A DNA stretch of 42,790 nucleotides from Methanocaldococcus sp. (GTDB taxonomy: Archaea; AGJL01; Methanococci; Methanococcales; Methanocaldococcaceae): positions 1 to 42,790 of the forward strand of contig JAMOTQ010000032.1 of the NCBI GenBank assembly GCA_027068365.1. Reading direction: 5' to 3'. A program made the translations under genes and the position numbers. This document shows positions 4,153 to 34,954 of the stretch, in pieces; the stretch's first letter is position 1; each line of letters starts with the position of its first letter. Below the pieces are notes generated by a model. That model was not told the DNA's origin and did not search any database. It saw only the letters and a program-made list of their open reading frames with translations.

Positions 4153-4197
4153 CTACTCCACCTTTTAATATCTTATGAATATCAACCCTTATAATTC

Positions 4198-4851
4198 TCA
4201 ATCACATATATATACTTTTTTAATTGGACAGTTATCGCATAATGGATTTTTCCTACAAAACCTTTTACAGTGTTCCACTATTAATGCGTGATATTCTTTG
4301 TATATTTCCAAATCTTTTGGTAGAGATTTTTCAAATATTTCCTTAATTTCATCATATTTAGCTTTTTCGCTAATTACTCCCAACCTACTAAACATTCTTT
4401 TAGTATATGAATCAACAACAAAACTCTCTCTATCCAACGCATACAATAAAATACTATCAGCAGTTTCCTTACCAACTCCATTTATTGATAAAAGCTCACT
4501 CCTCAATGTCAAAGTGTCTTTATCTGACTTAGCCATCTTTTCCGTGTTTCCATACTTTTCTACAATAAATTTGGTTACATTTTTTAGACGCTTAGCTTTT
4601 AAATTATAAAATCCAGCTGGTTTTATAAGTTCTTTTAATTTGTTTTCATCAATGTTTAATATTTTTCTCTCATCTATCAAATTTTTATTTTTTAGATTAT
4701 TAATTGCCCTTTCTACATTTTTCCAACTTGTATTTTGAGTTAAAATTGCTCCAACAACAACCTCATACCTTGTTTCAGCAGGCCACCAATTCTGTTTCCC
4801 ATAATGGTTTAATAAAATTTTATAAATGTTGTATATTATATTATCTTCCAT
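4198..4851 (-). CDS. HhH-GPD base-excision DNA glycosylase (EndoIII-like)
   Basis: DNA glycosylase of 217 residues. The helix-hairpin-helix is at 120-131 (LLSINGVGKETA), the catalytic aspartate is Asp147 (VVDSYTKR), and a C-terminal cysteine cluster (Cys199, 205, 208, 216, plus Cys195) should hold a [4Fe-4S] centre with slightly unusual spacing (x5, x2, x7). The position of the E. coli Nth lyase lysine (Lys120) is Glu129 here, so a monofunctional glycosylase without beta-lyase activity is expected. I recall the M. jannaschii counterpart (MJ1434) being described as a novel uracil-DNA glycosylase. The ATG follows GGGATAAA. The first 11 nt overlap the upstream membrane-protein gene, implying translational coupling. 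Confidence 0.87.
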   Translation of the reverse strand: MEDNIIYNIYKILLNHYGKQNWWPAETRYEVVVGAILTQNTSWKNVERAINNLKNKNLIDERKILNIDENKLKELIKPAGFYNLKAKRLKNVTKFIVEKYGNTEKMAKSDKDTLTLRSELLSINGVGKETADSILLYALDRESFVVDSYTKRMFSRLGVISEKAKYDEIKEIFEKSLPKDLEIYKEYHALIVEHCKRFCRKNPLCDNCPIKKVYICD

Positions 4852-5587
4852 TTTTATCCCTTATTATCACAGATTTTTTATCAAATGGATTAACTCTCAA
4901 ACATAAAGAGTAGAGGTAAGGATAGTTGTCTTTTAAGTGCATTAAGTAGTTTAACCATTGAATAATTAATAATCTATAAACCCTAATAATATCATTCTTT
5001 AAATGCTCTAAATCACTTTTTGGGAGATTTTTTAAGTCATCCCTTCTATGAAGTTCATCGGCTAAATGAAATACTGCCAAAAGCAATTCAGTAAAGCTTT
5101 CGTGCTCCAATAGCAGAGGATTTTCCATTAATCTCAAAAGAAAATTCCTGTTTTTTTCCAATAAATCTTTAAGTTTATGTAAATTAATCTTTTCTATATC
5201 TATGTTGAAATTATGATTTATTAATAATTTTTTTGTTTCTTCATAAGTTTTATTGTCCCAATCATCCGATATTTTTAAGTAATTCCTTATATCTCCAACG
5301 TCTCCTTCTAAAATTATTTTTAATAATTCCTCTCCAACACTATTAAAAAAAGAACCAACGACCATATTTAATTTTTCTAATCTCTTTTTCTTTTCTTTAT
5401 ACTCTAAAATCCTTTCAATAATTAAACTTACACACAGCACTTCAATAGGAACGAATGCCAAATGAAGTAAAAAATAACTTAATATATGCTCATAGTCCCC
5501 AAAAATAACAAAATGTATAGAATATATTAGTAGAGATAATAAAATTAATATTATTCCAATAATAATTATATATCTCTTTTCATCCAT
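4841..5587 (-). CDS. Uncharacterised two-helix membrane protein
   Basis: The family is not recognised. The 248-residue product starts with two membrane segments (about 7-30 and 38-60), followed by a charged, mostly helical cytosolic region (EYKEKKKRLEKLN onward) that contains leucine-rich amphipathic stretches. It may be a membrane-anchored adaptor. Its ribosome binding site (GGGAT) sits in the last codons of the PUA-domain gene upstream, and its 3' end overlaps the glycosylase start by 11 nt, so the three genes form a tight translational unit. No catalytic motif was found. Confidence 0.8.
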   Translation of the reverse strand: MDEKRYIIIIGIILILLSLLIYSIHFVIFGDYEHILSYFLLHLAFVPIEVLCVSLIIERILEYKEKKKRLEKLNMVVGSFFNSVGEELLKIILEGDVGDIRNYLKISDDWDNKTYEETKKLLINHNFNIDIEKINLHKLKDLLEKNRNFLLRLMENPLLLEHESFTELLLAVFHLADELHRRDDLKNLPKSDLEHLKNDIIRVYRLLIIQWLNYLMHLKDNYPYLYSLCLRVNPFDKKSVIIRDKNGR

Positions 5588-5588
5588 T

Positions 5589-6077
5589 TTATCCCTTAAA
5601 GTTCCAGAGCTTATCCCCTACATAGTGTATATTTTCAACTGCTTTCCCCTTATCTTCCTCTTTCATCTCTTTTCCACTCATTAATGCAATTCCAATACAT
5701 ATTGGTTTTTTGTGGTTTTCATCTACAACAAAAACAACATCTCCCTCATTAATGTTTTCATCCGCATCTACAATTCCCGGAGCCATTACATCAGCTCCCT
5801 TTATTAAGAATTTTATTGCCCCCATATCAACAACAACTAAATTTTTATCTGGGAGTTTTTTCAACAACAATCTTAATGTTGGAATTACTTTATCATCTTT
5901 TTTAAATGCAATTGGCTCTTTATCAACCAATATTATTTCAAAATCGTCAGCTATGGCTATTTCTACATTACCCTTTTTTGGAATTATTTCATCAACATCT
6001 CCAAAAAATTCCTTTAATTCATTTTTTATTTTTTTAATGTCCTTTTTGCTTAAAAAATATCTCCTTCTTATCTCCAA
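5589..6077 (-). CDS. MCT-1-like PUA-domain RNA-binding protein
   Basis: A 162-residue protein with an N-terminal pre-PUA domain (1-75, RRRYFLSKKDIKKIKNEL) and a C-terminal PUA domain (about 79-156, VVVDMGAIKFLIKGADVMAP then GIVDADENINEGDVV). This architecture matches archaeal relatives of eukaryotic MCTS1, which acts in ribosome recycling and re-initiation, so an RNA- or ribosome-associated role is likely. Translation starts at TTG (6075-6077) after a GGTGG site; no in-frame ATG would preserve the conserved N-terminus. An archaeosine-transglycosylase PUA fragment is the alternative, but the catalytic domain is absent. Confidence 0.85.
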   Translation of the reverse strand: MEIRRRYFLSKKDIKKIKNELKEFFGDVDEIIPKKGNVEIAIADDFEIILVDKEPIAFKKDDKVIPTLRLLLKKLPDKNLVVVDMGAIKFLIKGADVMAPGIVDADENINEGDVVFVVDENHKKPICIGIALMSGKEMKEEDKGKAVENIHYVGDKLWNFKG

Positions 6078-16046: not shown

Positions 16047-17681
16047 ATGGACAAACCATGGGTAGAGAAGTATAGACCAAAAACATTGGACGAGATTGTT
16101 GGACAGGATGAAATCGTAAAAAGATTAAAGAAATACGTTGAAAAAAAAAGCATGCCACATTTATTATTTAGCGGACCTCCTGGGGTTGGAAAGTGCTTAA
16201 CAGGGGATACAAAGGTTATTATAAACGGAGAGATTAAAAAAATTGGAGAGGTTGTTGAAGAAATTAGTAATGGGAAGTTTGGAGCAACTTTAACTAACAA
16301 CTTAAAGGTTTTAGGAATTGATGAATACGGAAAAATCAGAGAGTTTAATGTGCAGTATGTTTATAAGGATAAAACCAACACTTTGATAAAAATAAAAACC
16401 AAAATGGGTAGAGAGTTAAAGGTAACTACCTACCACCCTTTATTAATAAACAACAAAAATGGAGAAATAAAATGGGAGAAGGCAGAGAATTTAAAGGTTG
16501 GGGATAAGTTAGCAGTTCCATGCAATATTGTTTATAAAAAAAATGGCTTTATCTTTAAAGATAAAAAATTGAAAGGAAAAGGTCTAATCATAAATGAAAA
16601 TATATTAAACTATTTATCAGAAAAATTAAATTTAGATGCTGATTTAAGTAAGAACGTTTTAAAAGAAATTCTCTACAAATTAGAAACAATGGATAACAAT
16701 ATAGATGATAAGTTAAAGGATGCAATATCATATCTTATATTTTTACATGAAAATCAATTATATTGGGATGAAATTGTTGAAATTGAGCAATTAAGTGGAG
16801 AATTCACAATCTATGATTTGCATGTTCCAAAATACTACAACTTCATTGGTGGTAATTTACCAACTATACTGCACAATACAACTGCCGCTTTATGTTTAGC
16901 AAGGGATTTATTTGGAGAAAATTGGAGAGACAACTTTTTAGAACTTAATGCGTCAGATGAAAGAGGGATAGACGTTATTAGGACAAAAGTAAAAGAATTT
17001 GCAAGAACTAAGCCAATTGGAGATGTTCCATTTAAAATTATATTCTTAGATGAGAGTGATGCATTAACAGCAGATGCACAAAACGCTTTAAGAAGAACAA
17101 TGGAGAAATATTCAGATGTAGCTCGTTTTATTCTTAGTTGCAATTACCCAAGCAAGATTATCCCTCCAATTCAATCAAGATGTGCAATATTTAGGTTTTC
17201 ACCATTAAAGAAGGAAGATATAGCTAAAAAGCTAAAAGAAATTGCTGAGAAAGAAGGTTTAAAATTAACTGAAAGTGGGTTGGATGCAATAATTTATGTT
17301 TCAGAGGGAGATATGAGGAAGGCAATAAATGTCTTGCAAACAGCAGCAGCGTTAAGTGATGTTATAGATGATGAGATTGTTTATAAGGTCTCATCAAGGG
17401 CAAGACCAGAGGAAGTTAAAAAGATGATGCAATTAGCTTTAAATGGAAAGTTTATTGAAGCGAGAGATTTATTATACAAGTTAATGGTTGAATGGGGAAT
17501 GAGTGGGGAGGATATATTAAACCAGATGTTTAGGGAGATAAACAACTTGGATATAGATGAGAGAAAGAAGGTTGAGTTAGCAGATGCTATTGGTGAAACT
17601 GATTTCAGAATAGTTGAAGGGGCTAATGAACGAATTCAATTGAGTGCGTTATTAGCAAAAATGGCTTTAATGGGAAAGTAA
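16047..17681 (+). CDS. rfcS: Replication factor C small subunit, interrupted by an intein
   Basis: RfcS is the AAA+ clamp-loader subunit that, with RfcL, loads PCNA onto primed DNA. The precursor has 544 residues; removing the 228-residue intein (50-277) leaves 316, normal for the family. Host motifs are Walker A GPPGVGK (43-49) continuing with TT after the intein, Walker B IIFLDESDAL, sensor 1 LSCNYPSKI and SRC motif IQSRCAIFRF. The ATG follows GGTGATAAT. It lies between two F430 genes on the same strand. The M. jannaschii homologue, as I recall, carries three inteins; only one site is occupied here. Confidence 0.96.
   Translation: MDKPWVEKYRPKTLDEIVGQDEIVKRLKKYVEKKSMPHLLFSGPPGVGKCLTGDTKVIINGEIKKIGEVVEEISNGKFGATLTNNLKVLGIDEYGKIREFNVQYVYKDKTNTLIKIKTKMGRELKVTTYHPLLINNKNGEIKWEKAENLKVGDKLAVPCNIVYKKNGFIFKDKKLKGKGLIINENILNYLSEKLNLDADLSKNVLKEILYKLETMDNNIDDKLKDAISYLIFLHENQLYWDEIVEIEQLSGEFTIYDLHVPKYYNFIGGNLPTILHNTTAALCLARDLFGENWRDNFLELNASDERGIDVIRTKVKEFARTKPIGDVPFKIIFLDESDALTADAQNALRRTMEKYSDVARFILSCNYPSKIIPPIQSRCAIFRFSPLKKEDIAKKLKEIAEKEGLKLTESGLDAIIYVSEGDMRKAINVLQTAAALSDVIDDEIVYKVSSRARPEEVKKMMQLALNGKFIEARDLLYKLMVEWGMSGEDILNQMFREINNLDIDERKKVELADAIGETDFRIVEGANERIQLSALLAKMALMGK
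16194..16877 (+). other. RfcS mini-intein (228 residues) in the Walker A motif
   Basis: Protein-splicing element starting at Cys50 (CLTGDTKVIINGEIKKI, block A) and ending at Asn277 (TILHN, block G), followed by Thr as +1 nucleophile. Block B is LKVTTYHPLLI with the TxxH motif, and block F is YDLHVPKYYNFIGG. All splicing residues are canonical, so it should be active. The middle region (about 90 residues from NIVYKKNG to IVEIEQ) has no LAGLIDADG motif, so the homing endonuclease appears lost and the element is probably immobile. Insertion directly after the P-loop lysine means unspliced protein cannot bind ATP properly. Confidence 0.93.
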
Positions 17682-29837: not shown

Positions 29838-30094
29838 TTATCTCCCTCAACTAATAATTATTTTATTTTTTAATTTTATTACTTAATTTGATAATTATAT
29901 AATTACGTCGTAATTATATATTTATTTTCTATTTATATTTAAAATTTTTAAATTTTTAATGTTGTTATTTATAAATATTTGTATATATGGATTATTTTTA
30001 AGCAAATGTATTATATTCCCCATATCTAAATTAGAATAACAAAAACTATATGATTCATTTAAATTAAATATCAAAAATTACAAATGTGATTATT
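29838..30094. promoter_or_regulatory. Divergent promoter region between the phosphorylase-like gene and polC
   Basis: This 257-nt region is extremely AT-rich. A 25-bp palindrome at 29896-29920 (arms of 12 bp, one central base; core ATTACGTCGTAAT) starts 59 nt upstream of the phosphorylase-like ATG, in operator position. A TATA-like tract lies at 29967-29980 on the polC side. GTGAT just before 30095 is the polC ribosome binding site. No ORF is present. Confidence 0.5.
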
Positions 30095-33000
30095 ATGGTT
30101 CATGTTGCATGCTCTGAAAACATGAAAAAGTATTTTGAAAATATCGTTAATGAAGTTAAAAAAATTTACAAAATAGCTGAGGAATGTAGGAAAAAAGGTT
30201 TCGACCCAACTGATGAAGTTGAAATCCCGTTAGCTGCTGATATGGCTGATAGAGTTGAGGGATTGGTTGGACCGAAAGGTGTGGCTGAGAGAATTAGAGA
30301 ATTGGTTAAAGAGTTGGGTAAAGAGCCAGCGGCATTAGAAATAGCCAAAGAAATCGTTGAAGGAAAATTTGGAAACTTTGATAAAGAAAAAAAGGCAGAA
30401 CAGGCAGTTAGAACTGCACTGGCAGTTTTAACGGAGGGAATTGTTGCCGCTCCATTGGAAGGAATTGCAGATGTCAAAATCAAAAAAAATCCAGATGGAA
30501 CTGAATATTTAGCCATCTACTATGCTGGACCAATAAGAAGTGCTGGGGGAACAGCTCAGGCATTATCTGTTTTAGTTGGGGACTTTGTTAGAAAGGCGAT
30601 GGGTTTAGATAGGTATAAACCAACAGAAGACGAGATTGAGAGATACGTTGAAGAAGTTGAGCTTTACCAATCAGAAGTTGGTAGCTTCCAATACAACCCA
30701 ACAGCTGATGAGATTAGAACAGCCATAAGGAATATACCAATTGAGATTACTGGAGAAGCAACGGATGACGTTGAGGTTTCTGGGCATAGAGATTTACCAA
30801 GAGTTGAAACAAACCAACTGAGGGGAGGGGCTTTATTAGTTTTGGTTGAAGGGGTTTTGTTAAAAGCTCCAAAAATATTGAGGCATGTTGATAAATTGGG
30901 AATAGAGGGATGGGATTGGCTTAAAGATTTAATGAGTAAGAAAGAAGAAAAAGAGGAAGAAAAAGAGGAGGTAGAGGAAGAAGAAATAGATGAAGAGGAA
31001 GAGGAGATAAGTGGATACTGGAGGGATGTTAAGATAGAAGCAAACAAAAAGTTTATAAGTGAAGTTATTGCTGGAAGGCCTGTTTTTGCCCATCCTTCAA
31101 AGGTTGGTGGATTTAGGTTGAGATATGGAAGGAGTAGAAATACTGGATTTGCCACACAAGGATTTCATCCTGCCCTGATGTATTTGGTAGATGAATTTAT
31201 GGCTGTTGGAACTCAGCTAAAAACTGAAAGACCGGGAAAAGCCACCTGTGTTGTTCCAGTTGATAGCATTGAGCCGCCAATTGTTAAGTTAAAAAATGGG
31301 GATGTTATTAGGGTTGATACAATAGATAAAGCCGTAGAGGTTAGAAATAGAGTTGAGGAGATTTTATTCTTGGGGGATGTTTTAGTTAATTATGGGGATT
31401 TTTTAGAGAACAACCACCCATTACTGCCAAGTTGTTGGTGTGAGGAGTGGTATGAGAAGATATTGATAGCCAACAATATAGAGTATGATAAAGAATTTAT
31501 AAAGAATCCAAAGCCAGAAGAAGCTGTTAAGTTTGCTTTAAAAACAAAAACTCCATTGCATCCAAGATTTACATATCACTGGCATGATGTTAGCAAGGAG
31601 GATATAATCTTATTAAGAAATTGGTTGTTAAAAGGGAAAGAGGATAATTTTGAAGGTAAAAAGGTTTGGATTGTTGATTTAGAGGTAGAGGATGATAAAA
31701 AAGCAAAAAGGATTTTGGAGTTGATTGGTTGCTGTCACTTAGTTAGAAATAAAAAGGTTATAATTGAGGAGTATTATCCTTTACTCTACTCATTGGGCTT
31801 TGATGTTGAAAATAAAAAGGATTTAGTGGATAATATAGATGAAATTTTAAAATCAGCCAAAAATAGCATGCATCTTATAAATTTATTGGCTCCATTTGAG
31901 ATTAGGAGAAATGCTTATGTTTATGTTGGAGCAAGGATGGGAAGACCCGAGAAAGCCGCTCCAAGAAAGATGAAGCCCCCAGTTAATGGTTTGTTTCCAA
32001 TAGGTAACGCTGGAGGGCAAGTGAGATTGATAAACAAGGCAGTTGAGGAAAACAACACGGATGATATTGATGTCTCTTACACATACTGCCCAAAATGTGG
32101 AAAAATCTCTTTATATAGGGTCTGTCCATTCTGCGGAACTAAGGTAGAGTTGGATAAATTTGGAAGGATTAAAGCTCCTTTAAAGGATTATTGGTATTCT
32201 GCCTTGAAAAGATTGGGTATAAACAAGCCAGGGGATGTTAAGTGTATTAAGGGGATGACATCTAAGCAGAAGATTGTTGAGCCATTGGAAAAGGCAATAT
32301 TAAGGGCTATGAATGAGGTTTATGTCTTTAAAGATGGAACTACAAGGTTTGACTGCACTGATGTGCCAGTAACTCACTTTAAGCCAAATGAGATAAATGT
32401 TAGTGTTGAAAAATTGAGAGAGCTTGGTTATGATAAAGACATTTATGGTAATGAGTTAGTTGATGGAGAGCAAGTAGTTGAGTTAAAACCACAAGATGTC
32501 ATAATCCCAGAGAGTTGTGCGGAGTATTTTGTTAGAGTAGCTAATTTTATAGATGATTTGTTAGAGAAGTTTTATAAAATGGATAGATTTTACAATGTAA
32601 AAAAGAAGGAGGATTTAATTGGGCATTTAGTTATAGGAATGGCTCCTCATACCTCAGCAGGAATGGTTGGGAGGATTATTGGATATACAAAGGCAAATGT
32701 TGGTTATGCTCATCCATATTTCCATGCCGCAAAGAGAAGAAACTGCTTCCCTGCAAATACAAGGATTTTGGTAAATATTGATGGAGATGTTAAGAGAATT
32801 ACATTAAAGGAACTGTATGAGTTGTTTGATGAAAGTGATGAGGTATTTGAGAAGGATGCATTCATTAGAAGAAAGCCAAAGAGAAACGTTAAAGTCTATT
32901 CCTTCGATACAGAAAATAAAAAAGTAGTTTTAACTGACATTGAGGAAGTTATAAAGTTACAATCTCCAAATCATCTTATAAAAATAACATTAGATGGAAA

Positions 33001-34954
33001 TAGAGAGTTTATTACAACCTATGACCATCCAGTTATGGTTTATGAGAACGGCAAATTTGTTAAAAAATTGGCAATGGATGTTAAAGAAGGGGACTTAATG
33101 CTAATTCCAAAGGTTGATTTTGAAGAGGAGGATATAGAGGAGTTTGACTTATTAAAAGAATTTTCAAGAGAGGAGTTTAAAGATTTATGGAGTATTTTGA
33201 GAGTTAGAGGTATTGGCAATTGGATTAAAGAAAATATTGATAAGAAATTAATTAGAGAGCTGAAATTGAATGATTATTTAAGATATGATACAATACCATT
33301 GAATAAACTTCTCATCTTATTGGAAAAATCAAATTTAACAGTTGATGATGTTCCAAAAAACTGCTACATTGGTGTTAGAAGAGATAAGGTCAATATTAAA
33401 AGAATTGTTAAGGTTGAGCCGTTATTAAAGTTGATTGGCTACTACTTATCTGAGGGATATGCAAGGGAGTCAAAAAGTGTTTATCAGATAAATTTCTCAA
33501 ATTCAGAGGAAGAAATTAGGGAGACCATTAAAAAAGCTATAAAAGAGGCATTTGGAGATATAAACATATATGAAAATGAAGAGGAAGGAAAATTAACATT
33601 ATCATCAAAAATTGTTTATTTATTCTTCACAAGAGTTTTAAAGATTGGAAAAAAGGCAAAATCAAAGAGAGTTCCAAGCTTTATCTTTAAGTTGCCAAGG
33701 GAAAAAATTAAATTAATGCTTTCTGCCTACTTTGATGGTGATGGAACTGCTTTAATAACTACTCCAAGAGTAGCTGTTTATAGTGCAAATAAAGAGTTGT
33801 TGGAGGATATTGATTTATTGCTAAATAGATTTGGTATTAAAACTTATTGGACAGTTGATAAAAATGCAAATGAGAGAGAGGGGAGCTGTGTAAAGAAATA
33901 TTATGAAAATAAAGATAAAGAAGCTCCAAAATCAGTTGTTTATGCTTTAAATATTACAGGAAAGTATTATGACATCTTCTTCAAAAAAATAGGATTTTTC
34001 TTAAAAAGAAAGCAGAAGGTTTATGATTTGCATAAAAATAAGATAAGAAAAGATGATTTAACAGAATATGATTTTGGTTGGATTGTGGGGGTTAGAAAAA
34101 CTGAGGTAGTAAAGTCAGAGGATGAATTTATCTATTCACTAACTGCTAAGAAGTATCACAATGTAATCATAAACAAGAATATTCAAACATATCAATGTGA
34201 TGGAGATGAGGATTCTTTCTTCCTACTCTTAGATGCGTTCCTAAACTTCTCCAAGAAATTCCTGCCAGACAAAAGAGGAGGGCAAATGGATGCCCCATTA
34301 GTTTTAACAACTATCTTAGACCCAAAGGAAGTTGATGGGGAAGTCCATAACATGGATACGATGTGGAGTTATCCATTAGAATTTTATGAAAAAACCTTAG
34401 AGATGCCTTCACCGAAAGAAGTTAAGGAGTTTATGGAGACGGTTGAGGATAGATTAGGAAAGCCAGAGCAGTATGAGGGTATTGGCTACACTCATGAAAC
34501 TTCAAGGATTGATTTGGGACCGAGGGTTTGTGCCTATAAAACCCTTGGCTCAATGTTGGAAAAAACAACTGCCCAACTATCAGTTGCTAAGAAGATTAGG
34601 GCTACTGATGAGAGAGATGTTGCTGAGAAGGTTATACAGTCCCACTTTATCCCTGACTTAATTGGGAATTTAAGGGCTTTTTCAAGGCAGGCGGTTAGAT
34701 GTAAGTGTGGGGCTAAGTTTAGAAGAGTGCCATTAAAAGGAAAGTGTCCAAAATGTGGCTCTAACTTAATATTAACTGTCTCAAAGGGAGCTGTTGAGAA
34801 GTATATGGATGTTGCTGAGAAGATGGCTGAGGAATACGATGTAAATAATTATATAAAACAACGACTAAAAATTATTAGGGAGGGGATAAATTCAATTTTT
34901 GAAAATGAAAAGAGCAAGCAGGTTAAATTAAGTGATTTCTTTAAAATGAGTTAA
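30095..34954 (+). CDS. polC: DNA polymerase D large subunit DP2 with an intein
   Basis: Catalytic subunit of the archaeal replicative polymerase PolD. The precursor has 1619 residues from ATG 30095, preferred because GTGAT at 30086-30090 then acts as the ribosome binding site; the frame also has a GTG at 30086. Removing the 484-residue intein leaves 1135, the normal DP2 size. Visible features are the N-terminal region ([20 protein letters not shown]), an acidic linker (about 284-304, 30942-31012), zinc-binding CPKCGK and CPFCGT (from 32089), the catalytic motif N-CDGDED split by the intein, and a C-terminal zinc finger (CKCGAKF, CPKCGSN). The small subunit DP1 is not in the window. Confidence 0.96.
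32744..34195 (+). mobile_element. PolC intein (484 residues) with LAGLIDADG homing endonuclease
   Basis: In-frame element starting at Cys884 ([14 protein letters not shown], block A) inside the DP2 catalytic motif, between Asn and CDGDED. Block B is [11 protein letters not shown]. Two LAGLIDADG motifs are visible: [10 protein letters not shown] (about 33433-33465) and [10 protein letters not shown] (about 33718-33750), so a homing endonuclease is probably functional. Block F includes [10 protein letters not shown]. The C-terminus is NIQTYQ followed by Cys: the last residue is Gln instead of Asn, and the penultimate is Tyr instead of His. I recall that the Pyrococcus PolII intein at this site also ends in Gln and still splices; the Tyr is an extra departure. 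Confidence 0.93.

Follow-up and report, generated by a model that had tools for sequence, protein, structure and literature searches.

In the Methanocaldococcus sp. contig JAMOTQ010000032.1, the gene (PolC) for DP2, which is the large subunit of PolD, the replicative polymerase, carries an in-frame intein, and this intein ends in Tyr-Gln rather than in the standard His-Asn. The locus raises the question whether such an end marks an unusual splicing behaviour, on which active PolD might be conditional, or whether it is a variant that the intein has inherited. Throughout, the window refers to the whole stretch of DNA that was analysed, 42,790 nucleotides in length. We consider it highly probable that the intein is a full-length class 1 intein of the Pab PolII type, that its Tyr-Gln end was inherited, and that the ends of such inteins change mostly by recombination of the C-terminal half.

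The DP2 intein and its C-terminal junction

The open reading frame of DP2 runs through 1622 codons with neither a frameshift nor a stop, and a search of the genome revealed no second full-length copy of DP2, the gene being present in single copy. In three intein-less DP2 genes of the same genus (L011-L013), HAAKRRN runs straight into CDGDED without a gap, and this direct joining fixes the boundaries of the intein (Table 1). The codons at the C-terminal junction, read in frame, are TAT at 34190-34192 (Tyr), CAA at 34193-34195 (Gln) and TGT at 34196-34198 (Cys+1). The first-pass annotation had described an end of NIQTYQ followed by Cys, with Gln where Asn is standard, a trait shared with the Pyrococcus PolII intein, and with Tyr in place of the penultimate His, and this description is correct in each respect. 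The Tyr-Gln end is also not a sequencing error, since the same end occurs independently in other assemblies (L002, L005/L112 and L009).

Table 1. Features of the DP2 gene and its intein in the window
Feature	Position	Strand	Basis
DP2/PolC (PolD large subunit) gene with in-frame intein	30086..34954	+	Pfam PolC_DP2_N/central/cat; NCBIfam PRK14715, 3161 bits
DP2 intein, 484 aa, between HAAKRRN and CDGDED	32744..34195	+	Limits from intein-less homologues; Intein_splicing and LAGLIDADG_3 Pfam matches
Cys1, first nucleophile	32744..32746	+	Invariant, 69/69
Block B TTYDHP (Thr B7, His B10)	33014..33031	+	Thr and His invariant, 69/69
First LAGLIDADG motif LIGYYLSEG, homing endonuclease	33431..33457	+	Acidic residue kept
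Second LAGLIDADG motif LSAYFDGDG; module boundary, point of partner change in related inteins	33719..33745	+	Breakpoints of relatives at residues 327-335 in 6/7 pairs (DNA level)
C-terminal module, comprising blocks F and G and the second half of the endonuclease; apparently swapped as a unit in relatives	33722..34195	+	Conflict of N-module and C-module trees; AU tests
Block F, Ser at F4, catalytic His F13 at 34157-34159	34127..34174	+	His invariant, 69/69
Block G NIQTYQ, penultimate Tyr, last residue Gln	34178..34195	+	Codons read in frame
Cys+1 of the C-extein, DGDED motif directly after	34196..34198	+	Codon read in frame

A second intein of the window lies in the RFC small subunit gene (16047-17681, + strand); it is a mini-intein of about 228 aa (approximately 16194-16877), inserted at the P-loop (GPPGVGK/C...LHN/TT).

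Class membership and predicted splicing

The DP2 intein has the residues expected of class 1, namely Cys1, Cys+1, the Thr and His of block B and the His of block F, and its last residue belongs to the cyclisable kind (Asn, rarely Gln or Asp), being Gln and not Asn. Assignment to class 2 (KlbA-type) is ruled out by Cys1. Its insertion site, between HAAKRRN and CDGDED, is that of the Pab-type DP2 active-site inteins, and two intact LAGLIDADG motifs with their acidic residues mark it as a LAGLIDADG intein with a predicted endonuclease. In sequence it matches the PolII intein structures 5BKH (E 4e-56) and 2LCJ (E 4e-47), as well as the PolII intein 7OEC. An AlphaFold2 model of the intein (pLDDT 94) was matched by Foldseek over its length to the endonuclease inteins PI-PkoII, TliVMA and PI-PfuI, and over ~120 residues to the splicing domains of the Pab and Pho PolII inteins (2LCJ: probability 1.00, rmsd 1.4, 121 columns).

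The closest described systems are the PolII (DP2) mini-inteins of P. abyssi and P. horikoshii (2LCJ, 5BKH), with which the window intein shares the insertion site, Cys1, the TxxH of block B, Ser at F4, the block F His, the C-terminal Gln and Cys+1. They differ from it in that they end in His-Gln, lack a homing endonuclease and are only 185 and 166 aa long, whereas the window intein ends in Tyr-Gln and has a LAGLIDADG endonuclease. The PolII intein of Methanoculleus marisnigri is likewise a DP2 intein that ends in Gln and splices, slowly and better when Gln is replaced by Asn (PMC4031507), a likeness taken from its description and not from its sequence. A natural C-terminal Gln is also found in the ribonucleotide reductase intein of Chilo iridescent virus, which differs in host protein and lineage, and in that Gln there splices better than Asn (PMC4031507). 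The M. jannaschii PEP synthase and KlbA types likewise have no penultimate His, and their homologues in the genome studied here end VFN/C and VSN/C, respectively; these types differ in retaining Asn as the last residue, and KlbA is a class 2 intein without Cys1.

A penultimate His is absent in around 5% of functional inteins (PMC4031507), and its role can pass to the block F His (PMC5050341). By analogy with these systems, splicing of the window intein most likely follows the standard four-step route, in which the last cleavage would be cyclisation of Gln to an aminoglutarimide, and the invariant block F His would give the help that is supplied elsewhere by the penultimate His. We thus expect the Tyr-Gln combination to splice by known chemistry. 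The intein directly precedes the CDGDED motif, and for this reason the unspliced DP2 precursor would be expected to lack catalytic activity and not, as the first-pass annotation had implied, to fail in assembly.

That the intein is decaying and has lost splicing seems extremely improbable to us. Two of its usual catalytic residues are non-consensus, and the intein C-terminus model TIGR01443 does not report its end while reporting nine others in the same genome, as a decaying intein might lead one to expect; it nonetheless sits in an open frame in a single-copy replicase gene, and all its other catalytic residues belong to the invariant set. Compared with its nearest YQ relative, L002, it has a dN of 0.083 and a dS of 0.72 (ratio 0.12, one of two pairs for which dN/dS was computed), which indicates purifying selection at the sequence level. 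The nine other inteins of the genome end in HN (seven), SN (KlbA-like) and FN (PEP-synthase-like), the DP2 intein being the only one found there that ends in Gln.

Terminal residues at the DP2 site

Our survey comprised 69 distinct complete inteins at the exact DP2 site, 20 of them from Methanococcales, 46 from Thermococcales, one from a Lokiarchaeote and two from other archaea. The last two residues are HQ in 42 inteins, AN in seven, SQ in six, YQ and HN in four each, FQ and SN in two each, and AQ and YN in one each; for the Methanococcales the numbers are HQ 7, HN 4, YQ 4, FQ 2, SQ 2 and AQ 1. Taken singly, the last residue is Gln in 55 inteins and Asn in 14, and the penultimate residue is His in 46, Ser and Ala in eight each, Tyr in five and Phe in two. 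None of the 69 departs from Cys1, Thr B7, His B10 or His F13; judged from these sequences, free variation among the catalytic positions at the site is confined to the penultimate residue. The penultimate His of the Pab and Pho inteins, which is Tyr in the window intein, does not define the family, since 23 of the 69 surveyed inteins do without it. The loss of His might have been tied to a final Gln; this idea was rejected, as Thermococcales inteins ending in AN and SN exist.

These counts alter the weight of the initial observation. The first-pass annotation had treated the change of two catalytic residues at once as a special event, a view that does not survive the finding that Gln is the majority state and that residues other than His are common before it or before Asn. 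It had also stated that the idea would fail if Tyr-Gln proved common at this site; by this yardstick the idea is largely refuted, as Gln stands last in 55 and His is missing in 23 of the 69 inteins, and the pair itself is not rare at the site, ending 4 of the 20 Methanococcales inteins. With Gln the prevailing last residue at the DP2 site, and in a family already known to splice with it, Tyr-Gln counts as one more ordinary natural variant; the wider mosaic pattern described below matters more.

When the search was widened to other phyla, one archaeal phylum (152 genomes) yielded a single additional intein (L118, HQ) and another (300 genomes) yielded none at E 1e-18, a result of little weight, as divergent inteins may score below this cut-off; no match turned up in the phage records. 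At the same DP2 site, a very divergent mini-intein of 165 aa with a Tyr-Asn end (L111, from genome G036) is of unsure placement and probably represents an independent lineage. Several Methanococcales DP2 inteins of 288-404 aa (L014, L018-L022 and L030), in which the LAGLIDADG motifs are degraded or gone, are intermediate between full-length and mini-inteins.

Mosaic inteins and a probable exchange of modules

At the second LAGLIDADG motif (residues 326-334 of the window intein), at least four to five pairs of closely related DP2-site inteins drop in DNA identity from 91-97% to 50-66%, to rise again in the C-extein. The exteins and intein residues 1-335 of L007, which ends in HN, are 97-98% identical in DNA to those of L003/L004, which end in SQ, whereas the remainder of the intein, residue 335 up to its final base, is only 66% identical between L007 and L003 (inteins at 4162-5616 and 4165-5616, respectively). 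In the Thermococcales pairs L079 (SN)/L064 (SQ), L082 (AN)/L075 (HQ), L086 (AN)/L072 (HQ) and L085 (AN)/L071 (HQ), the fall from 91-96% to 50-57% identity takes no more than a few residues, and identity is high again in the C-extein; a like drop is seen for L084 and L083, with partners that are more diverged. On the numbering of the window intein, six of the seven pairs lose identity at residues 327-335 and the most diverged pair at 364; these positions only bound the crossover, which could be earlier where the parents are alike upstream of the motif. Likelihood ratios for a single breakpoint in the protein sequences are 77-137, compared to a maximum of ~22 in 500 shuffles and to 4-23 in ordinary sister pairs.

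Separate trees were built for the N-module (residues 1-316) and the C-module (residues ~325-481, ~155 residues), with the last three residues excluded from both, and the two are in strong conflict. The AN and SN inteins form one C-module clade (SH-aLRT 99), yet are scattered among HQ inteins in the N-module tree. AU tests reject both a single N-module clade of AN/SN inteins (p 8e-7) and the placement of L079 with its N-module sisters in the C-module tree (p 9e-5), although these p-values are somewhat optimistic, as the groups were picked after viewing the sequences. The Gln/Asn state requires nine changes on the N-module tree vs two on the C-module tree; the state of the end thus travels with the C-terminal half, and the terminal dipeptide is mostly a property of an exchangeable C-terminal module.

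A low identity of the C-modules could also come about by fast local divergence, and ordinary pairs (L001/L002, L005/L006) do have a somewhat higher variability in the C-terminal part. We regard this explanation as very unlikely: the divergent modules fall together in a different clade with good support (SH-aLRT 99) and do not stand on long branches of their own, the AU tests reject a shared placement, and the sister pairs L003/L004, L070/L071 and L075/L077 have no drop of such size. Exchange of the module is the reading that we prefer. The DP2-site inteins of thermophilic archaea probably swap a cassette that reaches from the second LAGLIDADG motif to the C-terminal junction, and so switch their final splicing chemistry in single steps. 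Across the family, most changes of the dipeptide would then be due to recombination that replaces the C-terminal half, with the second LAGLIDADG helix and the splice junction as its limits, and not to stepwise point mutation. L061 and L062, also from Thermococcales, are 94% identical in DNA from about residue 227 onward and 70% identical in the N-terminal part, which suggests, on this comparison of sequences, another exchange with an earlier breakpoint.

If this is true, the cassette carries the second endonuclease lobe together with the C-terminal splicing residues, N- and C-terminal intein halves are mixed naturally, and the chemistries switched are His-Gln, Tyr/Phe/Ser-Gln, His-Asn and Ala/Ser-Asn. 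By single bases, the way from CAA to AAT leads via a Lys or a His codon; a module swap would offer mobile inteins a route past such Gln/Asn codon intermediates, which presumably do not splice. Orthologous inteins with almost identical N-terminal halves thus appear to have had C-terminal halves of different terminal chemistry swapped in, and natural pairs such as L007/L003, L079/L064 and L082/L075 make the effects of the last residues on splicing rate, temperature and redox dependence measurable with the N-terminal half held constant. Exchange of the C-terminal half in these inteins was not found described in a literature search that most subscription papers lay outside, and we regard its novelty as provisional.

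History of the Tyr-Gln end

In a tree of the shared splicing domain, the window intein falls into a supported set of eight, of which three end in YQ, two in FQ, two in SQ, one in HN and none in HQ; within its C-module clade (Methanocaldococcus-type), only Tyr, Phe or Ser precede Gln. Neither the window intein nor its nearest YQ relatives have a clear module swap of their own. As the codons for Tyr, Phe and Ser in this set are one or two bases apart, and that for Tyr is one base from His, a single loss of His followed by drift would be the simplest history in this lineage. Counts of changes on one tree of the whole splicing domain (seven for the last residue, eight for His/non-His) were replaced by the module trees once the mosaicism had appeared.

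The first-pass annotation had proposed that splicing may be slow or temperature-dependent, which would make the assembly of PolD conditional on it. Slow, temperature-dependent splicing is plausible for the window intein, as it has been published for the PolII inteins of P. abyssi and P. horikoshii: both require high temperature to splice in vitro, and the Pab intein in addition requires reduction of a disulfide between Cys1 and Cys+1 (PMC8175363), while replacement of the C-terminal Gln of the slowly splicing Pab intein by Asn makes C-terminal cleavage 20-fold and splicing 3-fold faster (PMC4031507). It is a further step to regard Tyr-Gln as a slow or heat-gated switch maintained by selection, through which active PolD would depend on splicing, and this we consider unlikely. 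The need for heat in vitro may merely reflect that the protein comes from a hyperthermophile; in the clade of the window intein the residue before Gln shifts between Tyr, Phe and Ser, with a single base between them, Gln and Asn types interchange among close relatives, and several Methanocaldococcus congeners have a DP2 without any intein.

An exception to module exchange is L009, which ends in TYQ and whose C-module is near-identical to those of L010 (MHN) and L023 (IHN), with no module swap among the three. Between L009 and the other two, 5-6 of the last nine bases differ (Fisher p 4e-4 and 4e-5), compared to 8-9% of bases elsewhere. The switch is limited to the last three codons, so that not every change of the end proceeds by module exchange; it would be explained equally by gene conversion over a very short tract and by selection for a matched triplet (hydrophobic-His-Asn vs Thr-x-Gln), and the data do not choose between the two.
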